Source: Methylocaldum marinum
GTDB taxonomy: Bacteria; Pseudomonadota; Gammaproteobacteria; Methylococcales; Methylococcaceae
Direction of reading: 5' to 3'
NCBI RefSeq assembly: GCF_003584645.1
Contig: NZ_AP017928.1
Span: 3,324,395 to 3,388,394, forward strand
DNA: 64,000 nucleotides
The notes beneath the pieces are model-generated. The model saw only the letters and a list, made by a program, of their open reading frames with translations, was not told the DNA's origin and did not search any database. Shown here piece after piece: positions 3,201-26,923 of the stretch; position 1 is the stretch's first letter, and the number at the start of each line of letters is the position of its first letter. Both the position numbers and the translations under genes were made by a program.

Positions 3201-4027
3201 ACTTTGCCGCGTTTTCTGATCGCTTCATAACATGCTTCCATGGTCTCGACGAAAGAATTCTCGCGCGCCCAGAATTCCGGAAAATCGCCCCCCTTCTTGA
3301 TCAGCAAGGCCGGAACCGCGGGCGGGACGGCGGGTTCGATCCGCTCCGGCAAGCGCTTCCCGAGACGCCAGAACCGTTCCGCCGCCACCGCGCTCGGCAA
3401 GGGCTGCGGACGCGGACGCGTGAAATAGGAGTCGACGGTACTCACCGGTTCCTCCTGCTCGCTCAGGGCATCCGCCAGCACCCGCCCGAGCGGGGTCGCC
3501 CGCAGTTGCTTCATGAGTTCTTCGCGGGACAGGCCGCGCAGCTCGAACAATAGAAAGGGATCCTGGTCGAGTCTCGCCGCCAGGAAGTAATAAAGGCCGG
3601 CGACGTGTTTGCAGGGATTGGCCCAGTCCGGGCAGGAGCAATCGGTCTTCAGGTCCTTGGCGTCACGGGGTAGAAGGCGCAGTCCCAAGGCTTCGAACGG
3701 CTCTTCGATATTGTCCGGCATTTCATTGAGCAGCAGGCGCGAGACGAAAGCGGCGCGGCTGCCAAGGTCAGCGACCACTCGGCTCCAGTCGGAAGCGGCT
3801 ATCGTTTTCAGCTCGACCAGGGTCTGGTAGTACGGCTCCTTGTAAATGCCGAAATAGGGATTGACGTTGCCGCGAACCGTCGCCGAAACCCGGTTCGACC
3901 GGACATTCCAGGACTTGATGCGTTCGCTGCCGGTATAGCCGCGTCCGCGCGCCAGCCGGGCCGGATCGGTGAATGCTTCGAGCGCTTGTATGAATTTGCG
4001 TCCCCACCAGGTACGTACGGTTTTCAT
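3194..4027 (-). CDS. SWIM zinc-finger family protein
   Basis: A 277-residue cytoplasmic protein with a SWIM zinc-finger (CxCx(n)CxH) at CSCPDWANPCKHVAGLYY, near residues 130-147. The N-terminus (TWWGRKFIQALEAFTDPARL, ARGRGYTGSERI) is the conserved start of the bacterial SWIM family. SWIM domains bind zinc and are thought to mediate DNA or protein contacts. The gene sits 16 bases downstream of a large SNF2 helicase gene on the same strand. That pairing is widespread in bacteria and suggests the two products act in one complex, perhaps in DNA repair or remodelling. The exact role is not established. The downstream end touches a regulator remnant. Confidence 0.88.
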   Translation of the reverse strand: MKTVRTWWGRKFIQALEAFTDPARLARGRGYTGSERIKSWNVRSNRVSATVRGNVNPYFGIYKEPYYQTLVELKTIAASDWSRVVADLGSRAAFVSRLLLNEMPDNIEEPFEALGLRLLPRDAKDLKTDCSCPDWANPCKHVAGLYYFLAARLDQDPFLLFELRGLSREELMKQLRATPLGRVLADALSEQEEPVSTVDSYFTRPRPQPLPSAVAAERFWRLGKRLPERIEPAVPPAVPALLIKKGGDFPEFWARENSFVETMEACYEAIRKRGKVW

Positions 4028-4043
4028 GGTTCGCCCCCGTGCT

Positions 4044-7000
4044 TCAATCCAGTACCGCTTGCCGGTTCAGGGCGATGAGTTGCCTGAACGACTCATTGTC
4101 GAGCTTCGCGAGCCAGGATTCGTCGCTGCCGACGATGGTGCCGGCCACCTGCTTCTTGTCCTCTATCATCCGGTCTATGCGTTCTTCCAGGGTGCCGAGG
4201 GTGATGAACTTGTGCACGAACACATTGCGCGTCTGGCCGATGCGGAATGCCCGGTCGGTGGCCTGGTCCTCCACCGCCGGGTTCCACCAGCGGTCGAAAT
4301 GGAACACATGATTGGCGCGGGTCAGGGTGATGCCGACGCCACCGGCCTTGAGCGAGAGGATGAATATCGAGGGCGGGCTCTCCGGATCCTGGAACTGCGC
4401 GATCATCCGTTCGCGGCGGTTGCGCGAGGTACCGCCGTGCAGATAGTAGGTCCGGCATTGCAGCGTGGCCCGGAGCTGGCGCTCCAGCGAGTCGCCGATC
4501 TCGGTGAACTGGGTGAACACCAGGGCGCTCTCGCCTTCGCCGAGCACCTCGCCCAGCATGTCGAGCAGGCGCTCCAGCTTGTGCGAGCGATCCGCCGTGA
4601 ACGGGCTTCCATCCTGCAGGAATTGCGCGGGATGGTTGCAAATCTGCTTGAGCTTCATGAGGGTGGACAGCATCAGTCCCTGGCGCTGGATGCCCTCGCT
4701 CTCTTCCAGCTGGCGCTCCACGTCGCGCACCAGGGACTCGTACAGCGACGCCTGCTCCCGGCTCAGATTGCAGAACTGCCGGTTCTCCACCTTGGCCGGC
4801 AGATCCTTGATGATGGCGGGATCGGTCTTGACCCGGCGGAGGATGAACGGTTCGACCAGTTTCTTCAACAGCGCGGATTTCGCGAGATCGTTGTCCCGCT
4901 GGATCGGCTGTTCGTAGTTCTTGCGGAACTGCGCCTGTTTACCCAGATAGCCGGGGTTGAGGAAATTGAAGATGGACCACAGATCGAGCAGGCGGTTTTC
5001 CACCGGAGTGCCGGTCAGCGCGAGCCGGTAACCGGCGTCGAGCTGCAACACCGCCTTGGTCTGTGCGGCGACCGGGTTCTTGATGTTCTGCGCTTCGTCC
5101 AGGACCACGCGCCGCCAGCGAATCGCGGAAAACAGGCCGGCATCCTTGCGCAGCAGGGTGTAGGAGGTGATGACGACATCGCTGCGCGCGCATTCCTCCC
5201 GGAACGGCTGCTCGTCCTGGGTCCGACCGCTGCCGTGATGGATATGAGTCGCCAGCTGCGGGGCGAAGCGCTCGATTTCCTTCTGCCAATTGCCGATCAC
5301 CGAGGTCGGGACGATCAGCAGGTTCGGCCCCGCGCAGTCCTCTTCTTCTTTCTCGAGAACCAGGCGGGCGATCACCTGTATGGTTTTCCCGAGGCCCATG
5401 TCGTCGGCCAGGCAGCCGCACAGCCCCAGTCGTTCGAGCAGACGCAGCCAGGCGACGCCGCGTTTCTGATATTCGCGCAGGCTGGCGTTCAGCCGCGGCG
5501 GATCGTCGACCGGTTCGAGCTGCCGGTGATCGCGTAGTTTAGCCAGCATGGCGGCGCAGGCGTCTTCCGGCTCCACCTCGAACAGTTCGTTTTCTTCAGC
5601 GCTGCGGCGCAGAAATTCGGGCAGGTTCAGGGTCTCCCCGGTTTCGCCCTGGGCCTTCCAGAAGGCCAGCATTTCCCGCATGCGATCGCGGTCGAGCGCC
5701 ACCCATTGCCCGCGGAACCGCACCAGCGGCGTCTTGGTTTCGACCAACTGTTCCCATTCCTCGGCGCTGACGGTTTCGCCGCCGAGCGTAAGTTCGTAGC
5801 GATACTCGAGCAGCCGGTCCAGGCTCAAGCCGCTCATTGCGGCGACGGCCGCGGGTTTTCGGGCGCTCCCGGAGCCCCGCATGCGCAGCTTGGCGCGGCG
5901 GCGCCCTTGCGGCGTCCACCAGGCGGGAACGATCACCCGAAACCCCGCATCTTCCAGAACCCAGGCGGTTTCGTTGAGAAACTCGAACGCCTGCTCCAGG
6001 CTCAGGTCCAGGACGGTGGGCCGGTCGGATTCCAGGCCTTTCCACAAGTCCGGATAAATGCGTGCCGCTTGCCCCAGCCTCAGCAGCAGATTTTTCTCGA
6101 AATCCCGGCCGAAATTCTTGACCAGCGCCTGGCGCCCGGCCCCGCTCATCGCCCAATAGTCTTCCAGGGCCAGCTGCAGCGAAAAATCCCGGCATGCTGC
6201 CACGCGGAATTCCAGCCGCCAGCGGTCGGGCTCGGTTTCGCCCGCTTCGTGCAGCTGAAGACAGAGTTGAAACCCGGCTTCCCGCCGCTCGCCAGCCAGC
6301 CTGCGCCGCCACTGGCACCACTGGCGGTAGAGCGTCAGATCCCGGGTCGTCTGCCAGGGTTCCCTCGGTTCGCCGCGCAAGCAGGCCTCCATCGGAGAGC
6401 CCTGGATCCGTTTGGCCAGCGCCTGGGTCAGCCTGGCCCCGGTTACGCTGCGCTGGAGCAGCACTTCGGAACAATGCCGCAACAGGCTCTCGGCCTCGTA
6501 GCCGGGACCGGCGCTCGGCGGCATTCGTTCCGCCGCTTCCTGAATCAGGGTCTCGTAAGTGTCCGCGAGGAATTCGCAGCCCGCGTAAAGCTCGTAATCC
6601 CCGCCGGTCCCGGCGTGGAGGCGCAGCGACGGGATGTAGGCGTCCTTGAACAGGATCGCTTTCAGGGATTGAGTGAACCAGTACCAGAATAGAAAATCCG
6701 CGCCGGGCAGCCACTCCCGGGTGCGGAAAATCGACTGGAAGTGAACCTCGTTCAGATGGCCGACAGGATGTTCCGCGAGCCGCCAGCAGGCGATGTTCCA
6801 TTCACCGGGTTCGCCCTGTTCCGGATTGTCGCGTTCGAGATAAGGCGCGAGTTCGGGACAGGCCATGGGCGCGCCGTCGTACCCGGGCAGCGTAAGCGTA
6901 CATTCCACGAAGCGGTCCGCTCCCGCGGCAATGCCTAGCTCCGCGAGCAGTGCGCGCAGCTCCTTGGCGGATAAATGGCGGGGATGCCGGTTACGGGGGG

Positions 7001-7127
7001 GCCGTTCGGACGCCGGCTCGGAGGTCTCCACCCACAGGTGGAAATCCCCGTTTTGAAAAAACCGGGTGCCCGGTTCGGGAAGCCAGAATGCGTGAACGAC
7101 TTTCATGGCTGAATTATCGGTATTCAC
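4044..7127 (-). CDS. SNF2/Rad54-family DEAD/DEAH helicase
   Basis: A 1027-residue superfamily-2 ATPase that translocates on double-stranded DNA. The N-terminal half (to about residue 520) is the SNF2-associated region typical of bacterial homologues. The motor follows: motif I DDMGLGKTIQVIA (~575), motif Ia/Ib LLIVPTSVIGNWQKEIERFA, motif II VVLDEAQNIKN (DEAQ box, ~675) and motif III LALTGTPVENRLLDLWSIFN. The helicase C lobe shows LVFTQFTEIGDSLERQL, LHGGTSRNRRERMIAQFQ, LKAGGVGITLTRANHVFHFD and the arginine-finger motif QATDRAFRIGQTRNVFVHKF (~955). All catalytic motifs are intact. It is followed directly by the SWIM gene, so the two are probably cotranscribed. The substrate in this organism is unknown. 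Confidence 0.95.
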   Translation of the reverse strand: MNTDNSAMKVVHAFWLPEPGTRFFQNGDFHLWVETSEPASERPPRNRHPRHLSAKELRALLAELGIAAGADRFVECTLTLPGYDGAPMACPELAPYLERDNPEQGEPGEWNIACWRLAEHPVGHLNEVHFQSIFRTREWLPGADFLFWYWFTQSLKAILFKDAYIPSLRLHAGTGGDYELYAGCEFLADTYETLIQEAAERMPPSAGPGYEAESLLRHCSEVLLQRSVTGARLTQALAKRIQGSPMEACLRGEPREPWQTTRDLTLYRQWCQWRRRLAGERREAGFQLCLQLHEAGETEPDRWRLEFRVAACRDFSLQLALEDYWAMSGAGRQALVKNFGRDFEKNLLLRLGQAARIYPDLWKGLESDRPTVLDLSLEQAFEFLNETAWVLEDAGFRVIVPAWWTPQGRRRAKLRMRGSGSARKPAAVAAMSGLSLDRLLEYRYELTLGGETVSAEEWEQLVETKTPLVRFRGQWVALDRDRMREMLAFWKAQGETGETLNLPEFLRRSAEENELFEVEPEDACAAMLAKLRDHRQLEPVDDPPRLNASLREYQKRGVAWLRLLERLGLCGCLADDMGLGKTIQVIARLVLEKEEEDCAGPNLLIVPTSVIGNWQKEIERFAPQLATHIHHGSGRTQDEQPFREECARSDVVITSYTLLRKDAGLFSAIRWRRVVLDEAQNIKNPVAAQTKAVLQLDAGYRLALTGTPVENRLLDLWSIFNFLNPGYLGKQAQFRKNYEQPIQRDNDLAKSALLKKLVEPFILRRVKTDPAIIKDLPAKVENRQFCNLSREQASLYESLVRDVERQLEESEGIQRQGLMLSTLMKLKQICNHPAQFLQDGSPFTADRSHKLERLLDMLGEVLGEGESALVFTQFTEIGDSLERQLRATLQCRTYYLHGGTSRNRRERMIAQFQDPESPPSIFILSLKAGGVGITLTRANHVFHFDRWWNPAVEDQATDRAFRIGQTRNVFVHKFITLGTLEERIDRMIEDKKQVAGTIVGSDESWLAKLDNESFRQLIALNRQAVLD

Positions 7128-7179
7128 GCGCGTGAATGGTATACCGATCGTGCGGTTTTTCCATGGCCCGCCGTCCTTT

Positions 7180-8019
7180 TCACTCTTTCAGTCCGCTGGT
7201 GGCGATACCTTGCACGAAAAGCCGCTGAAACACCAGGAATATGATCAGGGTCGGAAGAGCGAAGAGCACGGCGCCCGCCATCAGCAGGGTCCATTCGACC
7301 CTGAACTCGTAGCGGAACATGGCGAGGCCGACCGGGAGGGTGAAGCGGTCGCTGCTGGTGGTCGCGACCAGCGGCCACAGGAATTCGTTCCAATTGCCCT
7401 GGAAGGTATAGATGGCGAGGGCCGCCAGCGCGGGCCTGGAAGCCGGCAGCACCACTCGCCAGAACACCTGGAACCGATTGCAGCCGTCGATACGGGCCGC
7501 TTCTTCCAATTGCCCGGGGATGGATTCGAAAAACTGCTTCATCAGAAAGATGCCGACCACCTGAACCGTGGCCGGCGCAATCAATGCGGTATAGGTATTC
7601 ACCAGGTCCAGGGCATTCAGGAGCATGAACTTGGGCACCAGGGTCACGTGAGCGGGCACCATGAGGGTTGCCAGTAACAGGACGAAGAGCAGATTGCGCC
7701 CCGGGAAGCGTAAACGCGCGAAGGCATAACCGGCGAGCGCGTCGAAAAAGAGATTCGCCAGCGTCACCGCCACGGCCACCGCCGCGCTGTTGAGCAGCCA
7801 TCGGCCGAACGGAATTTCGGTCCATAGCCGCCGGTAATTATCCAGGGTGAAGGGGGCCGGAATGAACTCGATCGGCCAGCCGAACACGTCCCCCGGCAGC
7901 TGAAACGAGATCGACAGCGACCACAGGAAGGGCAAGGCGAAGACTGCGGTCGCCGCGAGCAAGAGCGCGAGGACCGCGAATCGCCGGATGAGGCTTCGGA
8001 CAGCGCCGCCCCTCGTCAT
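7180..8019 (-). CDS. Carbohydrate ABC transporter permease (MalG-type)
   Basis: Inner-membrane subunit of a CUT1-type sugar importer, 279 residues with about six membrane spans (first at LAVLALLLAATAVFALPFLW). The cytoplasmic EAA loop that docks on the ATPase is clear: EAARIDGCNRFQVFWRVVLP (about residues 180-200). The ending (LFVQGIATSGLKE) is characteristic of MalG/UgpE relatives. The start codon overlaps the end of the partner permease gene by four bases (ATGA type), so the two are translationally coupled. No ABC ATPase gene is adjacent. A shared MsmK/MalK-like ATPase elsewhere would be needed. The sugar cannot be predicted. Confidence 0.95.
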   Translation of the reverse strand: MTRGGAVRSLIRRFAVLALLLAATAVFALPFLWSLSISFQLPGDVFGWPIEFIPAPFTLDNYRRLWTEIPFGRWLLNSAAVAVAVTLANLFFDALAGYAFARLRFPGRNLLFVLLLATLMVPAHVTLVPKFMLLNALDLVNTYTALIAPATVQVVGIFLMKQFFESIPGQLEEAARIDGCNRFQVFWRVVLPASRPALAALAIYTFQGNWNEFLWPLVATTSSDRFTLPVGLAMFRYEFRVEWTLLMAGAVLFALPTLIIFLVFQRLFVQGIATSGLKE

Positions 8020-18000: not shown

Positions 18001-18606
18001 GTGAACACCGCGCCGCTATGGGCATCCGAGGCGTTCTGGAAGAAAACCGCGGTCTGGGTAACGGCAGTTTCCTTTGTGCTGCTGATTGCCCTGACCTTCG
18101 ACTCGATGGCCAGGGTGTCGGCCGGCGGCAGCGAACGGGTACCCGCCTATAGCGTCATTAACAAGAAAATCGACTACCGCCTCGATTCCAAGCTAAACCG
18201 CTTCGTACCGGTCATCGAAGGCGACGCGCCTCTATTCGGCAAGACCTTGAACGAAGATGAGGCGGAACGACTCGTCACGCTCGGGAAGAAAACCTTTCAG
18301 GCGAAGAATTGCATCAACTGCCACACCATTCTGGGTAACGGCGCCTACTACGCGCCCGATTTGACCAAGGCCTGGCTGGACCCGAACTGGGTGGATGAAA
18401 CCAACCGCGAGACGCTGATGCTGGCTTTCCTCCAGGACCCGGCCGGCAATGCCAGGTCCTACGGCACCGGACGGCGGATGCCCAACCTCGGCATCACCGA
18501 AGAGGAGGCCAGGGGACTGATCGCTTTTCTGAAATGGACGGCGACCATAGACACCAACGGCTTCCCGCACAACTTCAAGACCCTATACGCACAGGAGAAC
18601 CCATAA
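18001..18606 (+). CDS. norC: Nitric oxide reductase subunit C (membrane-anchored cytochrome c)
   Basis: From a GTG start at 18001, with a strong AAGGAGG ribosome-binding site, the product is 201 residues. One N-terminal membrane anchor (VWVTAVSFVLLIALTF, ~18-34) precedes a periplasmic cytochrome c domain. The haem motif is CINCH (residues 104-108) within NCINCHTILGNGAYYAPDLT, and the axial Met is in TGRRMPNLGITEEEARGL. NorC takes electrons from periplasmic donors and passes them to NorB, which reduces two NO to N2O. The stop TAA overlaps the norB start (TAATG), indicating translational coupling. A longer frame with a start at 17818 overlaps the previous gene and is rejected. Confidence 0.96.
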   Translation: MNTAPLWASEAFWKKTAVWVTAVSFVLLIALTFDSMARVSAGGSERVPAYSVINKKIDYRLDSKLNRFVPVIEGDAPLFGKTLNEDEAERLVTLGKKTFQAKNCINCHTILGNGAYYAPDLTKAWLDPNWVDETNRETLMLAFLQDPAGNARSYGTGRRMPNLGITEEEARGLIAFLKWTATIDTNGFPHNFKTLYAQENP

Positions 18607-20084
18607 TGAGCGTCGGAGTCCTTGACAGTCGAAATCTCAACGGCGGACAAAAGCTCGCGGTGAAATATTTCATCGTCGCGATGGTTCTCTTCGTGGCGCA
18701 AATCCTGTTCGGTCTGCTCGCCGCCGTTCAGTTCCTTGCTCCCGGCTTTCTGTTCGAAACCCTGGATTTCAGCGTGAACCGGATGCTCCATATCAACGCC
18801 ATGATCGTGTGGATGCTGTACGGATTCATCGGGGCCGTCTACTGGTTTCTCGAAGAGGAAAGCGGAGTCGAGATCGTCGGCCTCAAGTGCGGAGAGATCG
18901 CCTTCTGGGTGCTGACGGCCGCGGTCGGCATCGTCGTGCTGGTGTATCTGTTCCTGCAGACCGGCGCCGGCAACGATGCGACCCGCTGGCTGATCAACGA
19001 AGGGCGCGAATACATCGAGGCGCCGCGCTGGGCGGATATCGGCATCGTCGCCGTCATGCTGGTGTTCTTCTACAATGCCGCCGGCACCTTTTCCAAGGGC
19101 CGCTGGTCCGGCGTCTCCGGCGTGCTCACGCTCGATCTGGTCGCCTTGGTCGGCCTCTATCTGACGGGGATGTTCTACACCACCAACGTGACCGTGGATC
19201 ACTATTGGTGGTGGTGGGTGGTCCATCTCTGGGTGGAGGCGACCTGGGAAGTACTGGTCGGGTGCATCATGGCCTGGAGCCTGATGAAGCTCCTGGGCGC
19301 CCGGCGCAGGATCGTCCAGACCTGGCTGTACATCGAGGTGGCGCTGATGTTCGGTTCGGGCATCCTGGGGCTGGGCCATCATTATTTCTGGATCGGCACC
19401 CCGGAGTACTGGTTCCCCATCGGCGGCTTCTTCTCCGCCCTGGAGCCGATTCCGCTGGTCGCCATGGTGGTGCACTCCATTTACGACGCCGGCGTCCACA
19501 AGTTCAGGAGCACCAACCATCCCGCGCTGGGCTGGGTGATCGCGCACACTTTCGGCAACTTCTTCGGCGCCGGCGTCTGGGGCTTCATGCACACCCTGCC
19601 GCAAATCAATCTCTACACCCACGGCACTCAATGGACGGCTTCCCACGGCCATTTGTCGTTTTTCGGGGCTTACGCCACGATCAATATCGCCTTCTTCTAT
19701 CTCGCGGTACAACAGTGGCGCGGCAATGTGTGGATGGGCGCCAATCTCGCCGACAACGGCTGGAAATGGAAATGGTCGATGGCCCTCTTGAATCTCGGCG
19801 TGATCGGCATGACCGTGGCCCTGCTCATCGCCGGCTACGAGCAATCGTTCATCGAGCGCGCTATCGAAGGCTCGACCTGGAGCGGTTATTTCGCCGCGCA
19901 GACCCACCCCTGGTTCACGCAGGCCATGTTTTGGCGGCTGATTTTCGGAATCGTCACCGCCGTCGGCCTGGTTCTGCTGATCTGGGATCTGGCGACCATC
20001 GGCGCTCGCGAAACCCGGCCCGCGCTGGTCATCGAACGGCCCGAAGAGCCGGGCATCAAGGCGGCTGTTGTGGAAACCGCGTAA
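18606..20084 (+). CDS. norB: Nitric oxide reductase subunit B (cytochrome b subunit)
   Basis: A 492-residue haem-copper-oxidase-family membrane protein with about twelve spans. The first ligand helix is FSVNRMLHINAMIVWMLYGF. The active-site helix WWWVVHLWVEATWEVLVG has the His and the Glu typical of NO reductases. LGLGHHYFWIGTPEYWFPIG and LEPIPLVAMVVHSIYDAG follow, with the haem-ligand region THGTQWTASHGHLSFFGAYA. The oxidase cross-linked Tyr motif is absent, as expected for NorB. It is coupled to norC. No norD/norQ or NorR/NsrR gene is adjacent, so activation and regulation depend on genes elsewhere. The likely role is NO detoxification or partial denitrification. Confidence 0.97.
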   Translation: MSVGVLDSRNLNGGQKLAVKYFIVAMVLFVAQILFGLLAAVQFLAPGFLFETLDFSVNRMLHINAMIVWMLYGFIGAVYWFLEEESGVEIVGLKCGEIAFWVLTAAVGIVVLVYLFLQTGAGNDATRWLINEGREYIEAPRWADIGIVAVMLVFFYNAAGTFSKGRWSGVSGVLTLDLVALVGLYLTGMFYTTNVTVDHYWWWWVVHLWVEATWEVLVGCIMAWSLMKLLGARRRIVQTWLYIEVALMFGSGILGLGHHYFWIGTPEYWFPIGGFFSALEPIPLVAMVVHSIYDAGVHKFRSTNHPALGWVIAHTFGNFFGAGVWGFMHTLPQINLYTHGTQWTASHGHLSFFGAYATINIAFFYLAVQQWRGNVWMGANLADNGWKWKWSMALLNLGVIGMTVALLIAGYEQSFIERAIEGSTWSGYFAAQTHPWFTQAMFWRLIFGIVTAVGLVLLIWDLATIGARETRPALVIERPEEPGIKAAVVETA

Positions 20085-20114: not shown

Positions 20115-20192
20115 GTAGGGCGGGTTAGCCCTTCGACAGGCTCAGGACAGGTTCTTCGGTGGGTTACGGCCTTCCGGCCTAACCCGCCCTAC
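20115..20192. repeat. Palindromic element with 14-bp arms; overlaps a gene's stop codon
   Basis: Outer arms GTAGGGCGGGTTAG (20115-20128) and CTAACCCGCCCTAC (20179-20192) are perfect inverted repeats. The middle holds CCCTTCGACAGGCTCAGGAC and GGTGGGTTACGGCCTTCCGG. The right edge supplies the TAG stop of the minus-strand gene that follows. It belongs to the same GTAGGG-ended class as the elements at 57619 and 59144. Confidence 0.8.
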
Positions 20193-21070
20193 GAGGCCTG
20201 CAAGACTGCCCGCTCGATCAAAGCCGCATCGGCCTCGCCGAACCCGCCGTCGATGAGACGCAGCACCGCTTCCTCGGCGGCCGGCGAAAACATCCAGCAA
20301 CGGCTCAGGATTTGCAGCAATCCCGCTAGCTCGTCCCCGGCTGCGGACGACAGCGTTTCATGCGGCGCCTTCCCTTCCCGGCGCAAAATGCACTCGATCA
20401 GAATCGCGCCCAGGAAGCGCAGGCTGTGGATCACATGAGTGTTCATGTCGCTGATGAGGTAATCGAACTTCTCCCGGAAGACCGGATCGCCCAGATAGGG
20501 ACCGAGTAAACCCTGCCGAACCGTCTCCCGAAGCAACCCGAAAAATTTCCTCTGTCCGTCGTGGACATTGGGGTCGTGGAAGAACTTGAAGGCATGTTCG
20601 AGGTCGTGCACGAAAAAAGCGAAACCGTTCGGCTTCTTGAGAACCGGCCGCAAGAGCCGCGGATAATCGGCCACGACCGTGACCGGCCGCCGGCCCGCCG
20701 CCTGCATCTCAAGGACTTCTCCGGGCGTCGGAATCCGCTCGGTCAGCAGTAGGGGCCATTCGCCGCGCAACCACGCCGAGAGCGCCACCGAAGCATTCGG
20801 GATAAGACCGAAAAAGTGATAACGCTCGATCCGATCGACCAGCACCCGCTCCAATTCGCTTCCGGCCGATCGGTCGAAATCCGCCAGCCAACTTGATGCG
20901 TCCGGCCTCGGATCGCTCTTGACCTTGCGCGACGCGAAACGCGGTCCGTGCATCCCGATCTGCCAGATAAAGAAATACAGCGCCGCATAGGCGGCATCGC
21001 TCAAGCCCCCGGAACGCCAACGTGCGGTCAGTTCGGGAATTCGGACCAATCGGTCGGAGAAATTCTGCAC
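20189..21070 (-). CDS. Conserved-looking hypothetical protein with HDxxH motif; 3' end formed by a repeat
   Basis: A 293-residue soluble protein of unknown family, rich in helices. The most striking segment is FAFFVHDLEHAFKFFHDPNV, an HDLEH pattern that could bind a metal. Another histidine follows in SDMNTHVIHSLRFLGAILIE. No signal peptide or membrane span is seen. Its stop codon TAG is contributed by the inverted repeat at 20115-20192, so the native C-terminus may have been replaced or shortened when the element arrived. It lies between norB (convergent) and a long spacer before kaiC. I cannot assign a function. Confidence 0.75.
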   Translation of the reverse strand: MQNFSDRLVRIPELTARWRSGGLSDAAYAALYFFIWQIGMHGPRFASRKVKSDPRPDASSWLADFDRSAGSELERVLVDRIERYHFFGLIPNASVALSAWLRGEWPLLLTERIPTPGEVLEMQAAGRRPVTVVADYPRLLRPVLKKPNGFAFFVHDLEHAFKFFHDPNVHDGQRKFFGLLRETVRQGLLGPYLGDPVFREKFDYLISDMNTHVIHSLRFLGAILIECILRREGKAPHETLSSAAGDELAGLLQILSRCWMFSPAAEEAVLRLIDGGFGEADAALIERAVLQAS

Positions 21071-21164
21071 TCGATGTCTCGTGCGATGACAATTTGACTC
21101 TATTTTCGCCCAGCGCGCCGGTTCGGCGCCACGGGCATCGTATTTGGTCCGCTCTCCCGGAGTA

Positions 21165-21235
21165 AGAGCCTATCCCAGTAGGCTTAAGAAACCCTTCGAC
21201 AAGCTCAGGGCGAACGACCTACTGGGATAGGCTCT
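21165..21235. repeat. Inverted repeat with 18-bp perfect arms
   Basis: Arms AGAGCCTATCCCAGTAGG (21165-21182) and CCTACTGGGATAGGCTCT (21218-21235) flank a centre containing CCCTTCGACAAGCTCAGGGC, a motif shared with the element at 20115. It is non-coding and lies in the long spacer before kaiC. It could be a small miniature element or a terminator-like structure. Confidence 0.8.
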
Positions 21236-21713
21236 AAGGCGGACGAGCGCTGGGCGAAAAGCGGAAGAGATCGCTGAACGAATTGAAGCCCATCATCGAT
21301 GTGCCTTCTTACTGGCCGCATCTCATCCCGATTGAACTCGCCGGGTTCAAAATCAAACCATTTCCGAGCAAAGCGCAAACGCGCCGTTCATGCCGTTTGT
21401 CACGCGCGGCAGAGGCCCGCAAGACGATTTCCCGAGCGATATACGGGGGTTACCGCACCCTGGCGGCCGGTATCCAAAATCCGGGAAACGCCGGATGTGA
21501 ACGATTTTTTTCTTCGCCGATCAAACAGGCTCGGATCATGCCAAGTAAAAGTCTTACCCCGGCAAAAAGCTTGGCATTCTGAATCTAAGCAGCCATGCGC
21601 GCCCCGCTTAACGCGACAGACCCCATCGGGAAGAGGAGCTTCCTCAGCCTCGAAGTCCAATACGAGGGATAAACGCTGTGCTCATTTAGCGATCTAAAAA
21701 ACTAGGAACTCGA
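21236..21713. other. Spacer upstream of kaiC
   Basis: About 480 bases without a supportable gene. Short open frames here lack ribosome-binding sites and family-like sequence. The stretch should hold the promoter of the kaiC-kaiB-kinase operon. An AGGAA ribosome-binding site lies just before 21714. I see no clear promoter hexamers. Confidence 0.4.
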
Positions 21714-23417
21714 ATGACTTCTTACAGAACTGACCCCCAACCCCTCGAGAAAAGCCGGTCGGGGATCGCCGGGCTCGACGAAATCACCAACGGCGGCTTG
21801 CCGAAAGGCAGGCCCACCCTCATCTGCGGCAGTGCCGGATGCGGCAAAACGCTCTTCGCCATGGAATTTCTCGTCAAGGGAGCTGTGAACTACGGCGAGC
21901 CGGGCGTCTTCATGGCTTTCGAGGAGACCGCGGAAGAACTGACCAAGAACGTCCGCTCGCTCGGTTTCCACCTCGACGAGTTGGCCGAGCAGAACAAGTT
22001 GATCGTGGACTATGTCTACATCGAACGGAGCGAAATCGAGGAAACCGGCGAGTACGACCTCGACGGGCTATTCATCCGGCTAGGTCACGCGATCGATTCC
22101 ATCGGGGCCAAGCGGGTGGTGCTGGACACCCTCGAAACCCTGTTCAGCGGCCTTTCGAATCAGGCCATTCTGCGGGCCGAACTTCGCCGCCTGTTCCGCT
22201 GGCTCAAGGATAAGGGAGTCACGGCGATCATCACCGCCGAGCGGGGAGCGGGAATGCTGACCCGGCACGGCCTCGAAGAGTACGTTTCGGACTGCGTGAT
22301 TTTGCTGGATCATCGAGTGAATGAGCAGATCGCGACTCGCCGCTTGAGAATCGTGAAATACCGGGGCTCCAGCCACGGGTCGAACGAGTACCCGTTCCTG
22401 ATCGACGAAGGAGGCGTGGACGTTTTGCCCATTACCTCCATCGGGTTGAACCATACCGCCAGCCATGAACGGATTTCCAGCGGGCTGGAGCGGCTCGACG
22501 CCATGCTCGGCGGCAAGGGATTCTACCGGGGTAGCAGCGTGCTGGTGTCCGGCACGGCCGGGACGGGCAAGAGCAGTCTCGCCGCCACCTTCGTCGATGC
22601 CGCCGGTAAACGGGGAGAAAAGGCGATTTACTTCGCCTTTGAGGAATCCCCGAGCCAGATCGTCCGCAACATGCGCTCCATCGGCATCGATCTCGAACCG
22701 CACCTTCAGAAAGGATTGCTCCAGTTCCGCCCCGCCCGCCCGACTCTGCAAGGGCTCGAGGCCCATCTGGCGACGATGTACAAGGTCGTCCGCGACCTCA
22801 AGCCGCACGTCGTGGTCGTGGACCCGATCACCAACCTCATGGCGGTCGGCACTCCCGAGGAGCTCAAGTCGATGCTCATGCGGCTGGTGGATTTCCTTAA
22901 GGCCAACCAGATCACCGCGCTATTCATCAGTCTGACCCATGGCGCTACCGTCATCGAACAGACCGATGTGGGCATCTCGTCGCTGATCGACACCTGGCTG
23001 TTGCTGCGGGATACCGAGCTGAGCGGGGAGCGGAACCGGGTGTTATACCTGCTCAAGTCGAGGGGCATGGCCCACTCCAATCAGGTACGGGAATTCCTTA
23101 TCACCGATCGGGGCATCGATCTCGTCGACGTGTACACCGGACCCGAAGGCGTGCTGACCGGCTCGGCCCGGCTCGCCCAGGAAGCCAGGGAGCGGGCGGC
23201 AACCGTATTGCGGGAGCAAGAAATCCAGAGAAAGGAGCGGGAGCTGGAGCGCAAACGTCAGGCGGTGGAGGCACAGATCGCCGCTCTGCGGTCCGGATTG
23301 GCAGCGGAAGAGGAAGAACTTCAGCTCGCGCTGATTCAAGCCCGGCATCGGGAAGCTCAACTGGCGCGGGACCGGGAGGCGATGGCTCGCGGCCGCAAGG
23401 CCGATTCCGATTCTTAA
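21714..23417 (+). CDS. kaiC: KaiC-family double-RecA-domain ATPase
   Basis: A 567-residue KaiC homologue with two RecA-like domains. CI Walker A is CGSAGCGKT (~residues 38-46) with the catalytic Glu pair in MAFEETAEELT. CII Walker A is VSGTAGTGKSSLA (~278-290) with YFAFEESPSQIVRNM. The region matching the cyanobacterial phosphorylation loop reads DVGISSLIDTWLLL, placing Ser422-Ser423 where KaiC has Ser-Thr. KSRGMAHSNQVREFLITDRG follows, as in the family. The last ~80 residues are a charged coiled coil (QEIQRKERELERKRQAVEAQ), longer than the cyanobacterial tail. It is the first gene of an operon with kaiB and a sensor kinase. No kaiA is present, so a hourglass or stress-signalling role rather than a full clock is likely. 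Confidence 0.96.
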   Translation: MTSYRTDPQPLEKSRSGIAGLDEITNGGLPKGRPTLICGSAGCGKTLFAMEFLVKGAVNYGEPGVFMAFEETAEELTKNVRSLGFHLDELAEQNKLIVDYVYIERSEIEETGEYDLDGLFIRLGHAIDSIGAKRVVLDTLETLFSGLSNQAILRAELRRLFRWLKDKGVTAIITAERGAGMLTRHGLEEYVSDCVILLDHRVNEQIATRRLRIVKYRGSSHGSNEYPFLIDEGGVDVLPITSIGLNHTASHERISSGLERLDAMLGGKGFYRGSSVLVSGTAGTGKSSLAATFVDAAGKRGEKAIYFAFEESPSQIVRNMRSIGIDLEPHLQKGLLQFRPARPTLQGLEAHLATMYKVVRDLKPHVVVVDPITNLMAVGTPEELKSMLMRLVDFLKANQITALFISLTHGATVIEQTDVGISSLIDTWLLLRDTELSGERNRVLYLLKSRGMAHSNQVREFLITDRGIDLVDVYTGPEGVLTGSARLAQEARERAATVLREQEIQRKERELERKRQAVEAQIAALRSGLAAEEEELQLALIQARHREAQLARDREAMARGRKADSDS

Positions 23418-23433
23418 GGGGAGATAGAACTGT

Positions 23434-23763
23434 ATGAACGAGAACCCGCAAGCCTCGAAGGGAAACGATCAGTCGCCCGAGACGGGCGAAAAATGGCTGC
23501 TCCGGCTGTACGTCGCGGGACGCACCCCCAAGTGCGTCACCGCCCTGGAAAACCTCAATCGGTTTTGCGCCGAGTACATGGCGGGCCGATACGAAATCGA
23601 AGTCGTGGATCTACTGGAAAATCCCCGCCTCGCCAAGGACGATCAGATCATCGCCATCCCGACGCTCGTGAGAAAATTGCCGGAACCCTTGAAGAAGATC
23701 ATCGGCAATCTCAGCGATACGGAACGCATGCTGGTCGGCCTCGATATGAAACCGAGAACATAG
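23434..23763 (+). CDS. kaiB: KaiB-family protein
   Basis: A 109-residue thioredoxin-like KaiB protein. The core is [20 protein letters not shown] (~residues 22-41), followed by [20 protein letters not shown] and [20 protein letters not shown], all matching KaiB, with the C-terminal [11 protein letters not shown]. KaiB binds the KaiC CI ring and changes fold to do so. It begins 16 bases after the kaiC stop with a GGGGAGA ribosome-binding site and is followed 52 bases later by the kinase gene, giving one operon. The first ~20 residues are a polar extension of no clear function. Confidence 0.95.
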
Positions 23764-23815
23764 CCGCGCCGGTCTTGAACTTCGGCGGCAAGCGCTTCAT
23801 GGAGAGAACAGGACA

Positions 23816-25597
23816 ATGAACTCTGACAGGCTGACGCGCGAGAACGAGTACCTGCGCCGGCAGAATGCCAAGCTCCTTTCGGCAATCAAGGAACTCCGGT
23901 CGAAGGCGACGGAGCCGGAGGAAATCATTCAGGCCATCCGCCAAGGCGAGATCGACGCCCTGGTTGTGGAAGAAAAGGGCCAAGAGCAGATTTACGCCCT
24001 CCAGACATTTGACTCCGTTTACCGGAGCATGATCGAGGAGTGCTTCCCCTACGGCGTGTGGCTCGCCGAACCGAACGGCAAGCTGCTTTACGTCAGCCCC
24101 TCCTTCCTCGACCTTCTCAAGACGGACCTCCTGGAGATGCGGGAAAAGGGGCAATTCCATTTTCTGCCGCCTGAGACCCGTGATTCAGTAGAGCGGCAGT
24201 GGATTGAACAACGGGAGACGGGGACGGCTTTTAACGTTGAGTACACGGTTCGCCTTGACGACGGCTCCGAGCGGACCATCTGGACGCACGGCATCCTCGC
24301 TCCGACGCTTTCCGGTCAAATCCACTGGGTGGGCGCCAACATCGATGTCACCGAGCGCAAGCGGGCCGATGACGCCGTCAAGAAACAAAACAAAAGGTTC
24401 CGGCTTCTGTCCGAAGCGGCCGAGGTGCTGCTCGTTACTCACGACCCAGAGACGATGCTTCGTAGTCTGTTCACCAAGATCAACCCGCATCTTGAATTGG
24501 ATGCGTACATCAACTACATGGTGGACGACACCGACGATGCCCTGCGACTGGTGTCATGCGTCGGCCTCCCCGCCGAGGCGACCCGGCTGATAGAGCGGCT
24601 GGAACTCGGCCAGCCCATGGCGGCCTCCCCTATCAAGCAAGCGAATGATTCGACGGCACAGGCGATCAAGTCACTCGGCCTACGGGCTTACGCCTGCCAT
24701 CCCCTGACAGCCGGCAACACATTGCTTGGGACGCTTTGTTTCGCTAGCCGGTCGAAAGTCCAGTTCGATGCTGAAGAGCTGGAATTTCTGCAAACGATCT
24801 GCCGCTATGTCGCTGTGGCTTATGAGCGGATGGGACTGGTGAATGAGCTGCGCGACGCCGACCGCCGCAAGGACGAGTTTCTGGCCATGCTCGGCCATGA
24901 ACTCCGAAATCCGCTCGCCCCGATCAAAAGCGCCGTGAAGATTATGAAAGCACTGGAGCCGTCCGATCCGAGGCACAAGAGAGCCCAGGATATCGTCGAT
25001 CGGCAAGTCACCCACTTGACGCGATTGGTGGACGATCTCCTGGATGTTTCCCGCATCGTCCAGGGAAAGATCACTCTGAAGAGAACGTCCCTTGATCTTT
25101 CCACCGTCCTGGATCACGCCCTCGAGGCCAGTAAGCCCCTCATCCAGGCACGAAAGCATAAATTGACGGTATCCTTTCCGGATCAGCCCATGCGGTTGGA
25201 AGCAGACGGAACGCGCTTGGCTCAAGTCATCTCGAATCTCCTCAACAATGCTGCCAAATATACCCCGGAAGGGGGAAAGATATGGCTGAGCGTCACCCAT
25301 GAGGACGGTCAAGCCCTGATCCGGATCAGGGACACCGGGGAAGGCATTCCTCAACCCATGCTTGCCCGGATTTTCGGCCTGTTCGTCCAATCCGACAGAA
25401 GCCTGGATCGCGCACAAGGCGGTTTGGGGCTCGGTCTGGCTATCGTCGAGCGCATTGTGGAACTACACGGGGGACGGATCGAAGCCAGAAGCGAAGGAGT
25501 GGGAAAAGGAAGCGAATTTCTCGTGTGGCTGCCGATCTCTACTCTAGAAACCTCTGAACAATTCACCGTTCCAAACAAAATAATGCCGAACGTCTAA
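23816..25597 (+). CDS. PAS-GAF sensor histidine kinase of the kai operon
   Basis: A 593-residue soluble kinase. An N-terminal coiled coil (ENEYLRRQNAKLLSAIKELR) and a short conserved region (EEIIQAIRQGEIDALVVEE) lead to a PAS/PAC domain (~70-185, YGVWLAEPNGKLLYVSPSFL and WVGANIDVTERKR). A GAF domain follows (~200-340, HPLTAGNTLLGTLCFASRSK). HisKA has its phospho-acceptor in FLAMLGHELRNPLAPIK. HATPase shows LAQVISNLLNNAAKYTPEGG, IRIRDTGEGIP and GGLGLGLAIV. Placement third after kaiC-kaiB is a recurring arrangement outside cyanobacteria and suggests this kinase is the output or input partner of KaiC/KaiB. No response regulator follows. The core is very like the kinase at 10761-12293. Confidence 0.95.
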   Translation: MNSDRLTRENEYLRRQNAKLLSAIKELRSKATEPEEIIQAIRQGEIDALVVEEKGQEQIYALQTFDSVYRSMIEECFPYGVWLAEPNGKLLYVSPSFLDLLKTDLLEMREKGQFHFLPPETRDSVERQWIEQRETGTAFNVEYTVRLDDGSERTIWTHGILAPTLSGQIHWVGANIDVTERKRADDAVKKQNKRFRLLSEAAEVLLVTHDPETMLRSLFTKINPHLELDAYINYMVDDTDDALRLVSCVGLPAEATRLIERLELGQPMAASPIKQANDSTAQAIKSLGLRAYACHPLTAGNTLLGTLCFASRSKVQFDAEELEFLQTICRYVAVAYERMGLVNELRDADRRKDEFLAMLGHELRNPLAPIKSAVKIMKALEPSDPRHKRAQDIVDRQVTHLTRLVDDLLDVSRIVQGKITLKRTSLDLSTVLDHALEASKPLIQARKHKLTVSFPDQPMRLEADGTRLAQVISNLLNNAAKYTPEGGKIWLSVTHEDGQALIRIRDTGEGIPQPMLARIFGLFVQSDRSLDRAQGGLGLGLAIVERIVELHGGRIEARSEGVGKGSEFLVWLPISTLETSEQFTVPNKIMPNV

Positions 25598-25729
25598 TTT
25601 GCGACCAGTCGATCTCCGCTAAACCACACGGACTCAACATCCTCCGTATGTGTGAACAGACAGCAGCTTCATGTGCTGTTTGTCTTCGGAAATCCTTTCT
25701 TCCGAGCAAATGAAAGATGACGCCTCCGG

Positions 25730-26923
25730 CTACTGCGATAGCGCCACACTCTCGAAATAATGGCGCTTGATCGCCTGGGCGAGCTGGTGCACGGCCATGG
25801 CGTAGTGAGTGCTGTGGTTGTAACGGGTGATCACGTAGAAGTTTTGATGGCCCAACCAGTATTCGTCGCCGGAATCGGCGCTGAGGCGGAGCAGGCGTAG
25901 CGTCGAATCTCTGCCCAGTGAGGCGACGGGCTGGATACCGTGGCTGGTCAAGGCCGCCAGGGAATAGCGGGTATCGAATCCCGATTCGAGCGTTCTGGCC
26001 ATGCCACTGGCCCTGGCCGCGGTCACCACCGGCTCGCCCGGCTGCCAGCCGTGAGCCGAGAAATAATTGGCGATACTGCCGATGGCGTCCACCGGATTCC
26101 ATAAATCACGGCGGCCATCTCCGTCGAAGTCCACCGCCCATTGCATAAAACTGCTGGGCATGAATTGGCCCAGCCCCATCGCGCCGGCGTAAGAACCCAC
26201 CGGAGCGGACGGATCGATCCCTTCGTCGCGCGTCATCAGCAGAAACTTTTCCAGCTCGGACCTGAAAAAACTCGCGCGCAGCGGATAATCGAACGACAAG
26301 GTGGTCAGCGCGTCAATCACTCTATGATTGCCCACATTGGCTCCGTATACCGTCTCCACCCCCATGATTCCGACGATATATTCGGGTGGTACGCCATACA
26401 ACGCACCGGCGCGTTTCAGTGCCGAGGCATGCCGGCGCCAGAAGGATACGCCGCCGGAGATATGTTGCTCGGTGAGAAACTTCGAACGATAACGTGACCA
26501 GGCGCCCGGGCGCGGCTGTCCGGCAGCGCCGGACTGTTTGCCCAAATAATCGAGCGTCCACTGTTTGCGCTTGGCTTGGGAAAAAACGCCGTTCAGATAC
26601 TCGCGGGAAAATCCATGCCGGCCGGCCATTTGCTCGATGAACCGATCGAGCGCCTCATAAGCGGCATAATCCCCGGTGATGCGGGAGGCGGCATAATGAC
26701 TGCGCACGGGTAAACCGCCCCGTACCGATGAGCCGGAAGGCGCGGACGCGTGCGGCACACCGGCCGAGCGGACGGTGGCTTTGTTCGCCACCCTCGCCGG
26801 AGGGACGAAGTTACTCTTCTTGGCGATCTTTTTCGGCGGCTTGGCGGGCACTCGAGTCGAGCAGCCCGCCACCAGGGCTGCAGCCAATATCAATAGGATT
26901 ACCGGTTTCAATCTTGCGTTCAT
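25730..26923 (-). CDS. mltB: Membrane-bound lytic murein transglycosylase B
   Basis: A 397-residue outer-membrane lipoprotein with signal peptide and lipobox (LLILAAALVAGCST, Cys21). A ~90-residue basic, proline-rich linker is followed by the MltB/SLT catalytic domain. The catalytic Glu is in YIVGIMGVETVYGANVGNHR. Substrate-groove motifs follow: DALTTLSFDYPLRASFFRSE, SYAGAMGLGQFMPSSFMQWA and DFDGDGRRDLWNPVDAIGSI. It cleaves peptidoglycan glycan strands with formation of 1,6-anhydro ends, in wall turnover. It stands alone, convergent with the kai-operon kinase. Confidence 0.95.
   Translation of the reverse strand: MNARLKPVILLILAAALVAGCSTRVPAKPPKKIAKKSNFVPPARVANKATVRSAGVPHASAPSGSSVRGGLPVRSHYAASRITGDYAAYEALDRFIEQMAGRHGFSREYLNGVFSQAKRKQWTLDYLGKQSGAAGQPRPGAWSRYRSKFLTEQHISGGVSFWRRHASALKRAGALYGVPPEYIVGIMGVETVYGANVGNHRVIDALTTLSFDYPLRASFFRSELEKFLLMTRDEGIDPSAPVGSYAGAMGLGQFMPSSFMQWAVDFDGDGRRDLWNPVDAIGSIANYFSAHGWQPGEPVVTAARASGMARTLESGFDTRYSLAALTSHGIQPVASLGRDSTLRLLRLSADSGDEYWLGHQNFYVITRYNHSTHYAMAVHQLAQAIKRHYFESVALSQ

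Follow-up and report, generated by a model that had tools for sequence, protein, structure and literature searches.

Three genes lie in tandem on the plus strand of the window, the 64,000-nucleotide stretch of the Methylocaldum marinum genome analysed here, in the order kaiC-kaiB-kinase and with intergenic gaps of 16 and 52 bases. Their parts are as follows.

21714..23417, + strand: kaiC, KaiC2 type, 567 amino acids (Pfam PF06745 in two stretches, 8.7e-114)
21828..21851, + strand: Walker A of CI, GSAGCGKT, KaiC residues 39-46 (sequence motif)
21921..21926, + strand: CI catalytic Glu pair, KaiC residues 70-71 (EE in 86/86 loci)
22551..22574, + strand: Walker A of CII, GTAGTGKS, KaiC residues 280-287 (sequence motif)
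22641..22646, + strand: CII catalytic Glu pair, KaiC residues 310-311 (EE in 86/86 loci)
22977..22982, + strand: phospho-pair Ser422-Ser423 of KaiC (aligned with the Ser pair of R. sphaeroides KaiC)
23160..23411, + strand: predicted C-terminal helical tail, KaiC residues 483-566 (AlphaFold2 model; 8dba alignment)
23434..23763, + strand: kaiB, 109 amino acids, first (B1) type (Pfam PF07689, 1.1e-25)
23816..25597, + strand: soluble PAS-GAF-HisKA-HATPase histidine kinase, 593 amino acids (Pfam)
23849..24043, + strand: kai-linked N-terminal module, named hkN here, kinase residues 12-76 (alignment A1)
24020..24364, + strand: PAS domain, kinase residues 69-183 (Pfam; structure model)
24443..24820, + strand: GAF domain, kinase residues 210-335 (Pfam)
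24869..25063, + strand: HisKA, kinase residues 352-416, with the phospho-acceptor His361 in the H-box (Pfam; motif)
25205..25537, + strand: HATPase_c, kinase residues 464-574 (Pfam)

The complete, single-contig genome has no match to the KaiA family PF07688, a profile that, among 14 control genomes, matched only in Synechococcus. The preliminary description of a kaiC-kaiB-kinase operon without kaiA is thereby borne out, and the absence of KaiA in this search is a trait of KaiBC hourglass timers. KaiB scored 193 bits with the B1 profile as against 127 bits with B2, and shares 61% identity with its R. sphaeroides counterpart across 83 residues. A scan of 21000-25800 for promoters and terminators returned signals at chance level only.

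KaiC and its characterised relatives

As the preliminary description had claimed, KaiC keeps both Walker motifs and both catalytic Glu pairs, and its phosphorylation pair is Ser422-Ser423. Lys45 and Thr46 of the CI Walker A are kept in 86/86 loci, as is Lys286 of CII, where residue 287 is Thr in 54/86 and Ser in 32/86; Ser-Ser occupies the phospho-pair in 78/86. The kaiC alignments (A4 and A5) omit L081, which has a stop in the stated range, L108 and L118, and the named loci, taken as the 80 best among 502 relatives that were confirmed, lean toward close KaiC2 relatives. The best PDB match of KaiC was 8dba (E 1.3e-199, over residues 11-562) and the closest structural matches were 8fwj, 8fwi and 8dba; identity to the KaiC of R. 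sphaeroides strain KD131 is 57% across 549 residues. The long C-terminal tail was also correctly recognised: residues 483-566 are predicted to form one helix, which aligns with the 8dba tail as far as residue 562. There are 82 residues beyond position 485, compared with an extension of about 50 expected of the KaiC2 subgroup, and heptad periodicity, checked roughly along this tail, which is modelled as a single chain, was not significant (p 0.26).

With two KaiC/RecA-type domains carrying Walker A motifs and Glu pairs, two serines and a C-terminal extension, this KaiC belongs by sequence to the known KaiC2 subgroup (R. sphaeroides type), which is defined by its serine pair (PMC10076222; PMC5520375). 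The view that Ser-Ser, a long coiled-coil tail and a kinase in the operon are unusual did not hold, all three being described hallmarks of the KaiC2 group or its operons; we rejected an unusual KaiC because Ser-Ser and the coiled coil both define KaiC2. The wording that set Ser-Ser apart from cyanobacterial KaiC needs correction as well, since cyanobacterial KaiC2 homologues are reported to have two serines (PMC5520375). What survives, once these traits are set aside, is the proposal of a KaiA-independent timing or stress module: the class is right, and the nearest characterised relative is the R. sphaeroides KaiBC hourglass.

In that system, from Rhodobacter (Cereibacter) sphaeroides KD131 (8DBA, 8FWI, 8FWJ), the coiled-coil tail of KaiC (PDB 8DBA) is reported to build a dodecamer in a KaiA-less hourglass (PMC10076222). 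The KaiC tail, the Ser pair, a Trp at the W428 place, the kaiC-kaiB-kinase order, the single kaiB and the kinase N-terminal module are all alike in M. marinum, as is the reported lack of KaiA (PMC10076222), whereas the kinase from R. sphaeroides carries an HWE-type annotation and that of M. marinum is a HisKA kinase with PAS-GAF. Operons with kaiC, kaiB and a PAS/kinase gene are described in R. palustris (PMC4794148) and R. sphaeroides, and the present operon is a further example of this kind already described in purple bacteria. As described by Ma et al. (2016, PMC4794148), the Rhodopseudomonas palustris operon shares the TSS phospho-site triplet, a longer C-terminus, the lack of KaiA and a PAS kinase as third gene, the kinases being likened by description; that operon was tested in vivo (PMC4794148), while the M. 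marinum operon is known from sequence. The cyanobacterial KaiABC-SasA system likewise combines a double-domain KaiC, KaiB and a histidine kinase as reader, but its KaiC has a Ser-Thr phospho-pair where M. marinum has Ser-Ser, and KaiA is without a match in this genome. Our search of the literature on KaiC in Methylococcaceae found none.

A kai-linked module at the kinase N-terminus

The kinase has no strongly hydrophobic 19-residue stretch. Ahead of residue 69 it has no Pfam match, and in AlphaFold2 its first 65 residues or so are predicted to form a long helix (residues 2-42) followed by a beta-hairpin running into the PAS domain. The helix, one of three stretches examined for it, shows heptad periodicity (p 0.006); soluble PAS kinases commonly have a helix ahead of PAS. 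A structure search with the N-terminus gave 50 listed matches, all of which are or contain PAS- or LOV-type sensors, and a PDB profile search with the module gave nothing significant (best E 0.028, coiled coils). The module, which matches no Pfam family, has a sequence signature of its own, consisting of the helix, an AIRxGxVDALVV hairpin and PAS; alignment A1 covers 46 of 50 non-redundant modules, omitting L037, L064, L092 (second protein) and L104. The module reads identically in L008 (relative G022) and in L090, from an uncultured Methylococcaceae bacterium.

Two known kinds of kinase were considered, of which a SasA-like one was rejected. SasA has a KaiB-like (thioredoxin) N-terminus, whereas Pfam found no KaiB domain in this kinase, NCBIfam NF006800, a model to which KaiB here matches over the N-terminal portion, covers the kinase only at residues 344-576, and its N-terminus is modelled as helix plus hairpin. 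The Nt_HK (RtaNt) kinases of a kaiB-less kaiC group are alike in having a conserved N-terminal module beside kaiC, proposed to bind KaiC (PMC3164672), but that group is described as lacking kaiB, as having SY, TY or SF sites, and as resembling receiver domains, SasA and KaiB in the kinase N-terminus (PMC3164672). In M. marinum kaiB intervenes between kaiC and kinase, the phospho-site is a Ser-Ser pair, and helix plus hairpin is the structure predicted for the module, which sets it apart by description from that family.

Among the 86 loci, the module lies downstream of kaiB in 82; the remaining 4 are cut off no more than 1003 bases after kaiC. The M. marinum genome itself has one match, this kinase (85.5 bits), with all 64 candidates scored. 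All candidates were likewise scored in 41 relatives, 5 of which have the module, all of them within the 6 having full-length KaiC2, while three same-genus relatives searched have no KaiC2. For the phylum-wide searches scoring was confined to the best 20-25 module candidates of each genome, and across 299 genomes of the phylum the module was present in 9/9 with KaiC2 (one weakly, G069, 37.9 bits), in 0/22 having only other KaiC, and as one weak match without KaiC (G148). Across 247 Bacteroidota genomes the module occurred in 18, all among the 25 with KaiC2; 7/25 were without it. Among 72,556 plasmid records, the 13 with the module were the same 13 with a KaiC2-type kaiC, a result reproduced using the kinase's own 65 module residues as query, and phage records gave no module match. 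The module is also present on the HWE kinase of R. sphaeroides KD131 (53.5 bits). Fisher p values take related genomes as independent and serve here as description only.

Strong module matches in the genome surveys lay beside kaiC2, twice beside kaiB alone and once at a contig end, closeness to kaiC being read from coordinate lists by eye. Each of 31 KaiC2-bearing whole genomes had one strong match, except G340 and G355 with two each; the 33 records of this count were picked for carrying KaiC2 with all candidates scored, and G351 and G356 are centres picked likewise. For the second strong module of G340, no kaiB was detected in the 405 upstream bases present on the contig. At L198 a tail-less KaiC of another type has a weak module next to it (22 bits), and the decayed loci L163 and L165 retain a half-module only, beside kai fragments, so part of the module can be lost. 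Two Bacteroidota loci (L172 and L175) have kaiC2 and kaiB and no module, and in the Bacteroidota KaiC2 loci read without a detected kaiB the module is absent in 5/5; kaiB was searched in fetched regions, which in the Bacteroidota survey covered 3/18 module loci. Taken together, these surveys reveal a near-exclusive linkage, in sequence, between the module and kai loci, and an unnamed kinase N-terminal module found almost only beside KaiBC clock genes is what we newly describe here.

The rest of the protein varies. A Pfam tally of 77 module proteins (this kinase, L117, and 75 complete plus-strand proteins among 84 module ORFs) found PAS in 77/77, HisKA in 49, HWE in 5, HisKA_3 in 4, GGDEF in 7, EAL in 7, a sigma-54 activator domain in 2 and HD in 2, and 1035/2415 protein pairs are alike in the N-terminus but not elsewhere.

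A candidate plug between the KaiBC timer and the cell

The operon probably encodes a KaiA-less, KaiC2-type KaiBC timer with a dedicated output kinase, whose module would dock on KaiB or on KaiB-KaiC, a reading to which we give a probability of roughly 0.55. The sequence shows which genes are present, their motifs, the tail, the homology and the near-exclusive tie of the module to kai loci; we infer the biochemistry of these proteins, as well as the docking and the direction in which it acts. Judging from the homologous R. sphaeroides system, KaiC hexamers would be paired into a dodecamer via the C-terminal coiled coil. By the same analogy, KaiC would autophosphorylate on Ser423 and Ser422 without KaiA at high ATP/ADP and be dephosphorylated as ATP/ADP falls, and binding of KaiB to CI would speed ATP hydrolysis. 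The kinase module, its long helix followed by the beta-hairpin, would dock on KaiB or the KaiB-KaiC complex, the PAS domain next to it would relay the state of the timer to the HisKA core, and the GAF domain may contribute a second signal.

That the kinase N-terminus matters, as the preliminary description held, agrees with its near-exclusive kai linkage, but the partner suggested there, the coiled-coil tail of KaiC, now seems improbable. Such pairing would suit the heptad periodicity of residues 2-42 and the lack of the module in the 22 phylum genomes with only other KaiC, whose matches end at residue 479-521 of 567. Module distances also correlate best with those of the tail (partial correlation 0.29, against 0.21 for the second KaiB, 0.14 for the KaiC core and 0.08 for the first KaiB, in the 73/86 loci with the module and exactly two kaiB copies, which were counted on mechanical ORFs, where overlapping frames may have raised the number). 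These correlations do not favour KaiB as partner, although they carry little weight, since a common operon history ties the parts together. The idea is weakened because L179 and L180 keep kaiB and the module with a tail-less KaiC2, while seven tailed Bacteroidota KaiC2 loci have no module; the module at L198 likewise accompanies a tail-less KaiC, and in the solved R. sphaeroides KaiC the tails are reported to pair with one another (PMC10076222). Retention with a tail-less KaiC2, and at two loci beside kaiB with no kaiC nearby, points to KaiB rather than the tail, as does the absence of the module from the 5 Bacteroidota KaiC2 loci without a detected kaiB. Operon linkage does not by itself establish contact, and the exceptions at L172, L175, L163, L165, L198 and the second copy of G340 count against the proposed docking. 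We give little credence to a plain dimerisation or signal helix inherited along with the operon and making no Kai contact, even though the modelled helix running via a hairpin into PAS is of the kind common in soluble PAS kinases: such a helix should turn up in further PAS kinases of each genome, yet M. marinum has its single match among 64 candidates and the 31 KaiC2 genomes, bar G340 and G355, have one strong match each, and the module is kept while the remainder of the protein is exchanged.

The direction of signalling might also be reversed, with the kinase sensing redox or energy through PAS-GAF and adjusting KaiBC, as the receiver, via its N-terminal module. The histidine kinase of the R. 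sphaeroides kaiBC operon has been suggested to relay a redox signal to KaiBC (PMC5520375; PMC10931921), and PAS is present in every module protein scanned; we nevertheless consider this unlikely, given the fusion of the module to whole output enzymes (GGDEF, EAL, HD and sigma-54 activator proteins), among which the sigma-54 activator at L100 is hard to take as an input device, and the direct ATP/ADP resetting reported for the R. sphaeroides relative (PMC10076222). A more serious contender, if still a tentative one, is that KaiBC here is an energy or stress switch without daily timing. KaiC2 has been linked to the stress response of Legionella and adaptive growth of R. palustris (PMC5520375), and Synechocystis has a KaiC2-KaiB2 system believed to work independently of the clock (PMC11372060). 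KaiC2 is also present in Methanoperedens archaea. Light-following would not be expected in such organisms. Against this, R. sphaeroides KaiBC is reported to act as an hourglass reset by ATP/ADP (PMC10076222), and R. palustris to show a daily KaiC phosphorylation rhythm in light-dark cycles (PMC4794148). Since hourglass and energy switch overlap, this alternative differs from a timer more in physiology than in mechanism.

These findings place a KaiBC timer in a Methylococcaceae bacterium and bear on the signalling from KaiBC timers without KaiA to the cell, a question on which the module may give a hold. As it is found almost only beside clock genes, the module is a candidate plug by which the clock would connect to other cell functions. 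It could be, at close to even odds in our judgement, a dedicated reader of KaiB-bound KaiC2 and a general plug from the KaiA-less clocks of bacteria and archaea to interchangeable outputs, which we propose to include HisKA, HWE/HisKA_2 and HisKA_3 kinases, c-di-GMP enzymes, HD-domain proteins and sigma-54 activators. If so, the module would correspond, beyond the canonical cyanobacterial clock and with another fold, to the KaiB-like domain that SasA carries. Short as it is, and marking presumed readers in several phyla, the module offers a direct handle that can be removed, swapped or used as bait, and its signature could find clock readers even without an adjacent kaiC.

The kai operon and its published relatives

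The operon occupies the forward strand of the window, with gaps of 16 bases between kaiC and kaiB and 52 bases between kaiB and the kinase gene.

21714-23417, forward: kaiC (Pfam: KaiC domain, two stretches)
23434-23763, forward: kaiB (Pfam: one KaiB domain)
23816-25597, forward: histidine kinase (Pfam: PAS, GAF, HisKA, HATPase_c)
20189-21070, minus: gene of 293 amino acids adjoining kaiC (Pfam, NCBIfam: zero matches)
25730-26923, minus: lytic transglycosylase B gene on the other flank (Pfam/NCBIfam scan)

Since the flanks consist of a 293-residue gene without matches and a lytic transglycosylase B gene, the kinase has no response regulator beside it. Its H-box histidine is His361, and a search along its sequence found no strongly hydrophobic stretch. 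The KaiA family (PF07688) had zero matches in the organism's single-contig genome (6,088,916 bases), and in a control run Synechococcus alone was positive among 14 control genomes; three tandem genes without kaiA were thus correctly read in the preliminary description. The motifs it assigned to KaiC were likewise all located: both Walker A motifs (starting at residues 39 and 280), glutamate pairs at 70-71 and 310-311, and the phospho-pair Ser422-Ser423.

Two further features were seen upstream of kaiC. An inverted repeat at 21166-21234, with arms of 17 bases (GAGCCTATCCCAGTAGG), is a dispersed repeat, because the GAGCCTATCCCAGTAGG arm occurs 9 times in the genome, against 0 for its reversed control. 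One gene away from kaiC, cytochrome c and COX1-family genes (Pfam; 18001-20084) look like a nitric oxide reductase norC-norB pair, a name that is our interpretation.

Among solved proteins, R. sphaeroides KaiC is the closest (8dba, with E 1.3e-199); the alignment spans residues 11-562 and so takes in the C-terminal tail. In blastp against strain KD131, KaiC is 57% identical across 549 residues and KaiB 61% across 83. An AlphaFold2 model of KaiC (28 sequences, mean pLDDT 80) has a single helix at 483-566, and its top structural matches were 8fwj, 8fwi and 8dba. We compared 86 kaiC loci, namely the window's own, five from relatives and 80 named loci. Lys45, Lys286, both glutamate pairs and Trp428 are present in 86/86, and the phospho-pair is Ser-Ser in 78/86 (otherwise SA 3, TS 2, AS 1, SM 1, ST 1). 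The tail extends 79-103 residues past position 485 and is the less conserved part of the protein (mean identity to the window 0.42, versus 0.70 for the KaiC core). As a crude heptad test on the window's tail was non-significant (p 0.26), the case for a coiled coil depends on homology and the predicted helix.

Taken together, the operon almost certainly belongs to the class of KaiC2-type KaiBC timers. Passages of Pitsawong et al. 2023 (PMC10076222) describe a KaiC clade whose tail is about 50 residues longer and whose members are mostly kaiC2 with two serine sites; in it a 12-helix coiled coil holds the KaiC dodecamer, phosphorylation is independent of KaiA and ATP/ADP does the resetting. Cyanobacterial KaiC2 with two serines and an R. 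sphaeroides kaiBC operon holding a histidine kinase appear in passages of Schmelling et al. 2017 (PMC5520375), and R. palustris kaiC-B-PAS/HK, with TSS and a longer C-terminus, in passages of Ma et al. 2016 (PMC4794148); the 2011 paper on the Ramlibacter genome (PMC3164672) describes a kaiC group lacking kaiB, in which the adjacent kinase has a conserved N-terminal module, proposed there to bind KaiC. Given these printed descriptions, the operon type, serine pair, tail and neighbouring kinase are already known.

The N-terminal module of the kinase

Ahead of its PAS domain the kinase carries a module of about 65 residues (12-76). Pfam gave zero matches starting ahead of residue 69 of the kinase, and the NCBIfam matches listed (25 of 83) all start at or beyond residue 286. 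On the N-termini of five relatives, NCBIfam matches mostly start in the PAS part (at least residue 44), and the few that enter the module fall far under curated cut-offs. A PDB search with the module reached only E 0.028, to coiled coils, and our search of the open-access literature yielded no paper that we recognised as describing it. Its consensus is LxxExxxLRxRLxEAEETLxAIRxGxVDALVVxGxxGxQVYTLxGADxxYRxLIExM. AlphaFold2 (35 sequences, mean pLDDT 86) predicts a helix at 2-42 and strands at 48-53 and 56-61, followed by PAS; the hairpin detail is less sure, because the blocks around it have mean pLDDT of 72, 82 and 59.

The module is joined to varied outputs. Among 77 module proteins, Pfam detected PAS in 77, HATPase_c in 55, HisKA in 49, Response_reg in 22, GGDEF and EAL in 7 each, HWE and HisKA_2 in 5 each, HisKA_3 in 4, and Sigma54_activat and HD in 2 each; a sigma-54 activator carrying the module (L100) was examined in detail, and a few proteins stop after PAS (e.g. 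L069, L054). In 70 proteins longer than 260 residues, the N-terminal 66 residues match in 2411/2415 pairs and the part beyond residue 175 in 1378/2415, with 1035/2415 matching in the N-terminus only; as these proteins were selected for the module, just the contrast between N-terminus and remainder counts.

Linkage of the module to kai loci

A profile search found the module 3' of kaiC, starting less than 3.5 kb away, in 82/86 loci, on which that profile had been trained; in the other four (L010, L080, L109, L115) the sequence after kaiC is at most 1003 bases. An untrained query, the 66 residues from the window itself, matched 77 ORFs in the 86 loci, its own included. In the window's genome the single match is this kinase (64/64 candidates scored). 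Of 41 relatives, own genome included, 6 have full-length KaiC2; 5 of these carry the module and no other relative does. For the one exception, G005, the sequence read ends right past the second kaiB. G009, with a KaiC fragment only, lacks it.

Wider surveys gave the same association. Among 299 genomes of the phylum, the module occurs in 9/9 with KaiC2 (E <1e-150), weakly in G069 (37.9 bits), and in 0/22 with only other KaiC (34-40% identity); G148, without KaiC at E up to 1e-60, has an extra weak match (32 bits). Here kaiB adjoins the module in 8/8 loci read besides the window. In 247 Bacteroidota genomes the module is found in 18, all inside the 25 with KaiC2 (0/222 others), each about 1 kb or less from kaiC2 by listed coordinates, with kaiB in 3/3 regions read of those 18. 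The other seven KaiC2 genomes showed no module in the sequence read near kaiC; kaiB was undetected there in five loci and detected in two (L172, L175). From their sequences, genes near four such KaiC2 without detected kaiB or module kinase (L173, L176, L177, L178) look like an ABC/MCE transport cluster.

Planctomycetota (294 genomes) were searched for the module, with KaiC read only in fetched regions. This gave 9 matches, one being centre G356, the genome of L078; five of the other eight have KaiC2 and KaiB upstream (L191, L192, L193, L196, L197). At L198 (1275-5167) a weak module (22 bits) lies beside KaiB and a Ser-Ser KaiC that lacks the tail and differs in type (it matches the window's KaiC at E 4e-102); the reach of the module may extend beyond KaiC2.

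All 33 genomes or records picked for carrying KaiC2 have the module, with one strong match apiece except in two genomes: G355 has two, at its kai loci L077 and L079, and G340 has a second near a contig end, where no kaiB was detected in the 405 bases preceding it. The remaining matches are weak, at 28-31 bits. Among 72,556 plasmid records, 16 carry KaiC (E up to 1e-50), 13 at 54-62% identity and 3 at ~37%, and exactly those 13, non-independent because nine are one species, have the module, whether a relative's sequence or the window's own 65 residues served as query. A search of phages gave zero matches.

KaiB, KaiC and the module's possible target

In the regions read, the neighbour that accompanies the module most constantly is KaiB. 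The module adjoins kaiB type B2 in two Planctomycetota loci without nearby kaiC (G676, L206; G873, L207), where kaiC was sought in ~15 kb and ~18 kb upstream, respectively, and none was found. It persists when the KaiC tail is lost, in L179 (3302-4843) and L180 (3174-4640), whose Ser-Ser KaiC ends 28 residues past position 454, lacks the C-terminal coiled coil and is, on its sequence, a natural tail-less KaiC2. It is also missing from the 5 loci in which no kaiB was detected with kaiC2. A tandem pair of distinguishable kaiB types, B1 then B2, follows kaiC in 77/86 loci; since the window and R. sphaeroides have B1 alone, B2 is dispensable. Counting against KaiB as the target, partial rank correlations of module distances over 73 loci were highest for the tail (0.29), then B2 (0.21) and the KaiC core (0.14), and lowest for B1 (0.08). 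Two decayed loci, L163 (G148; 4595-7944, a kaiC-kaiB remnant) and L165 (G357; 3318-4854, a kaiB fragment), are each followed by a kinase with the module's helical half only, which fits a hairpin lost once out of use, although two cases prove little.

On this balance, we give the module an even chance of docking on KaiB or KaiB-KaiC. For the statement as a whole, which combines membership of the KaiC2-type KaiBC timers with a probable reader role for the kinase, we estimate a probability of roughly 0.55; by such docking, the kinase would read a KaiA-less KaiBC timer.
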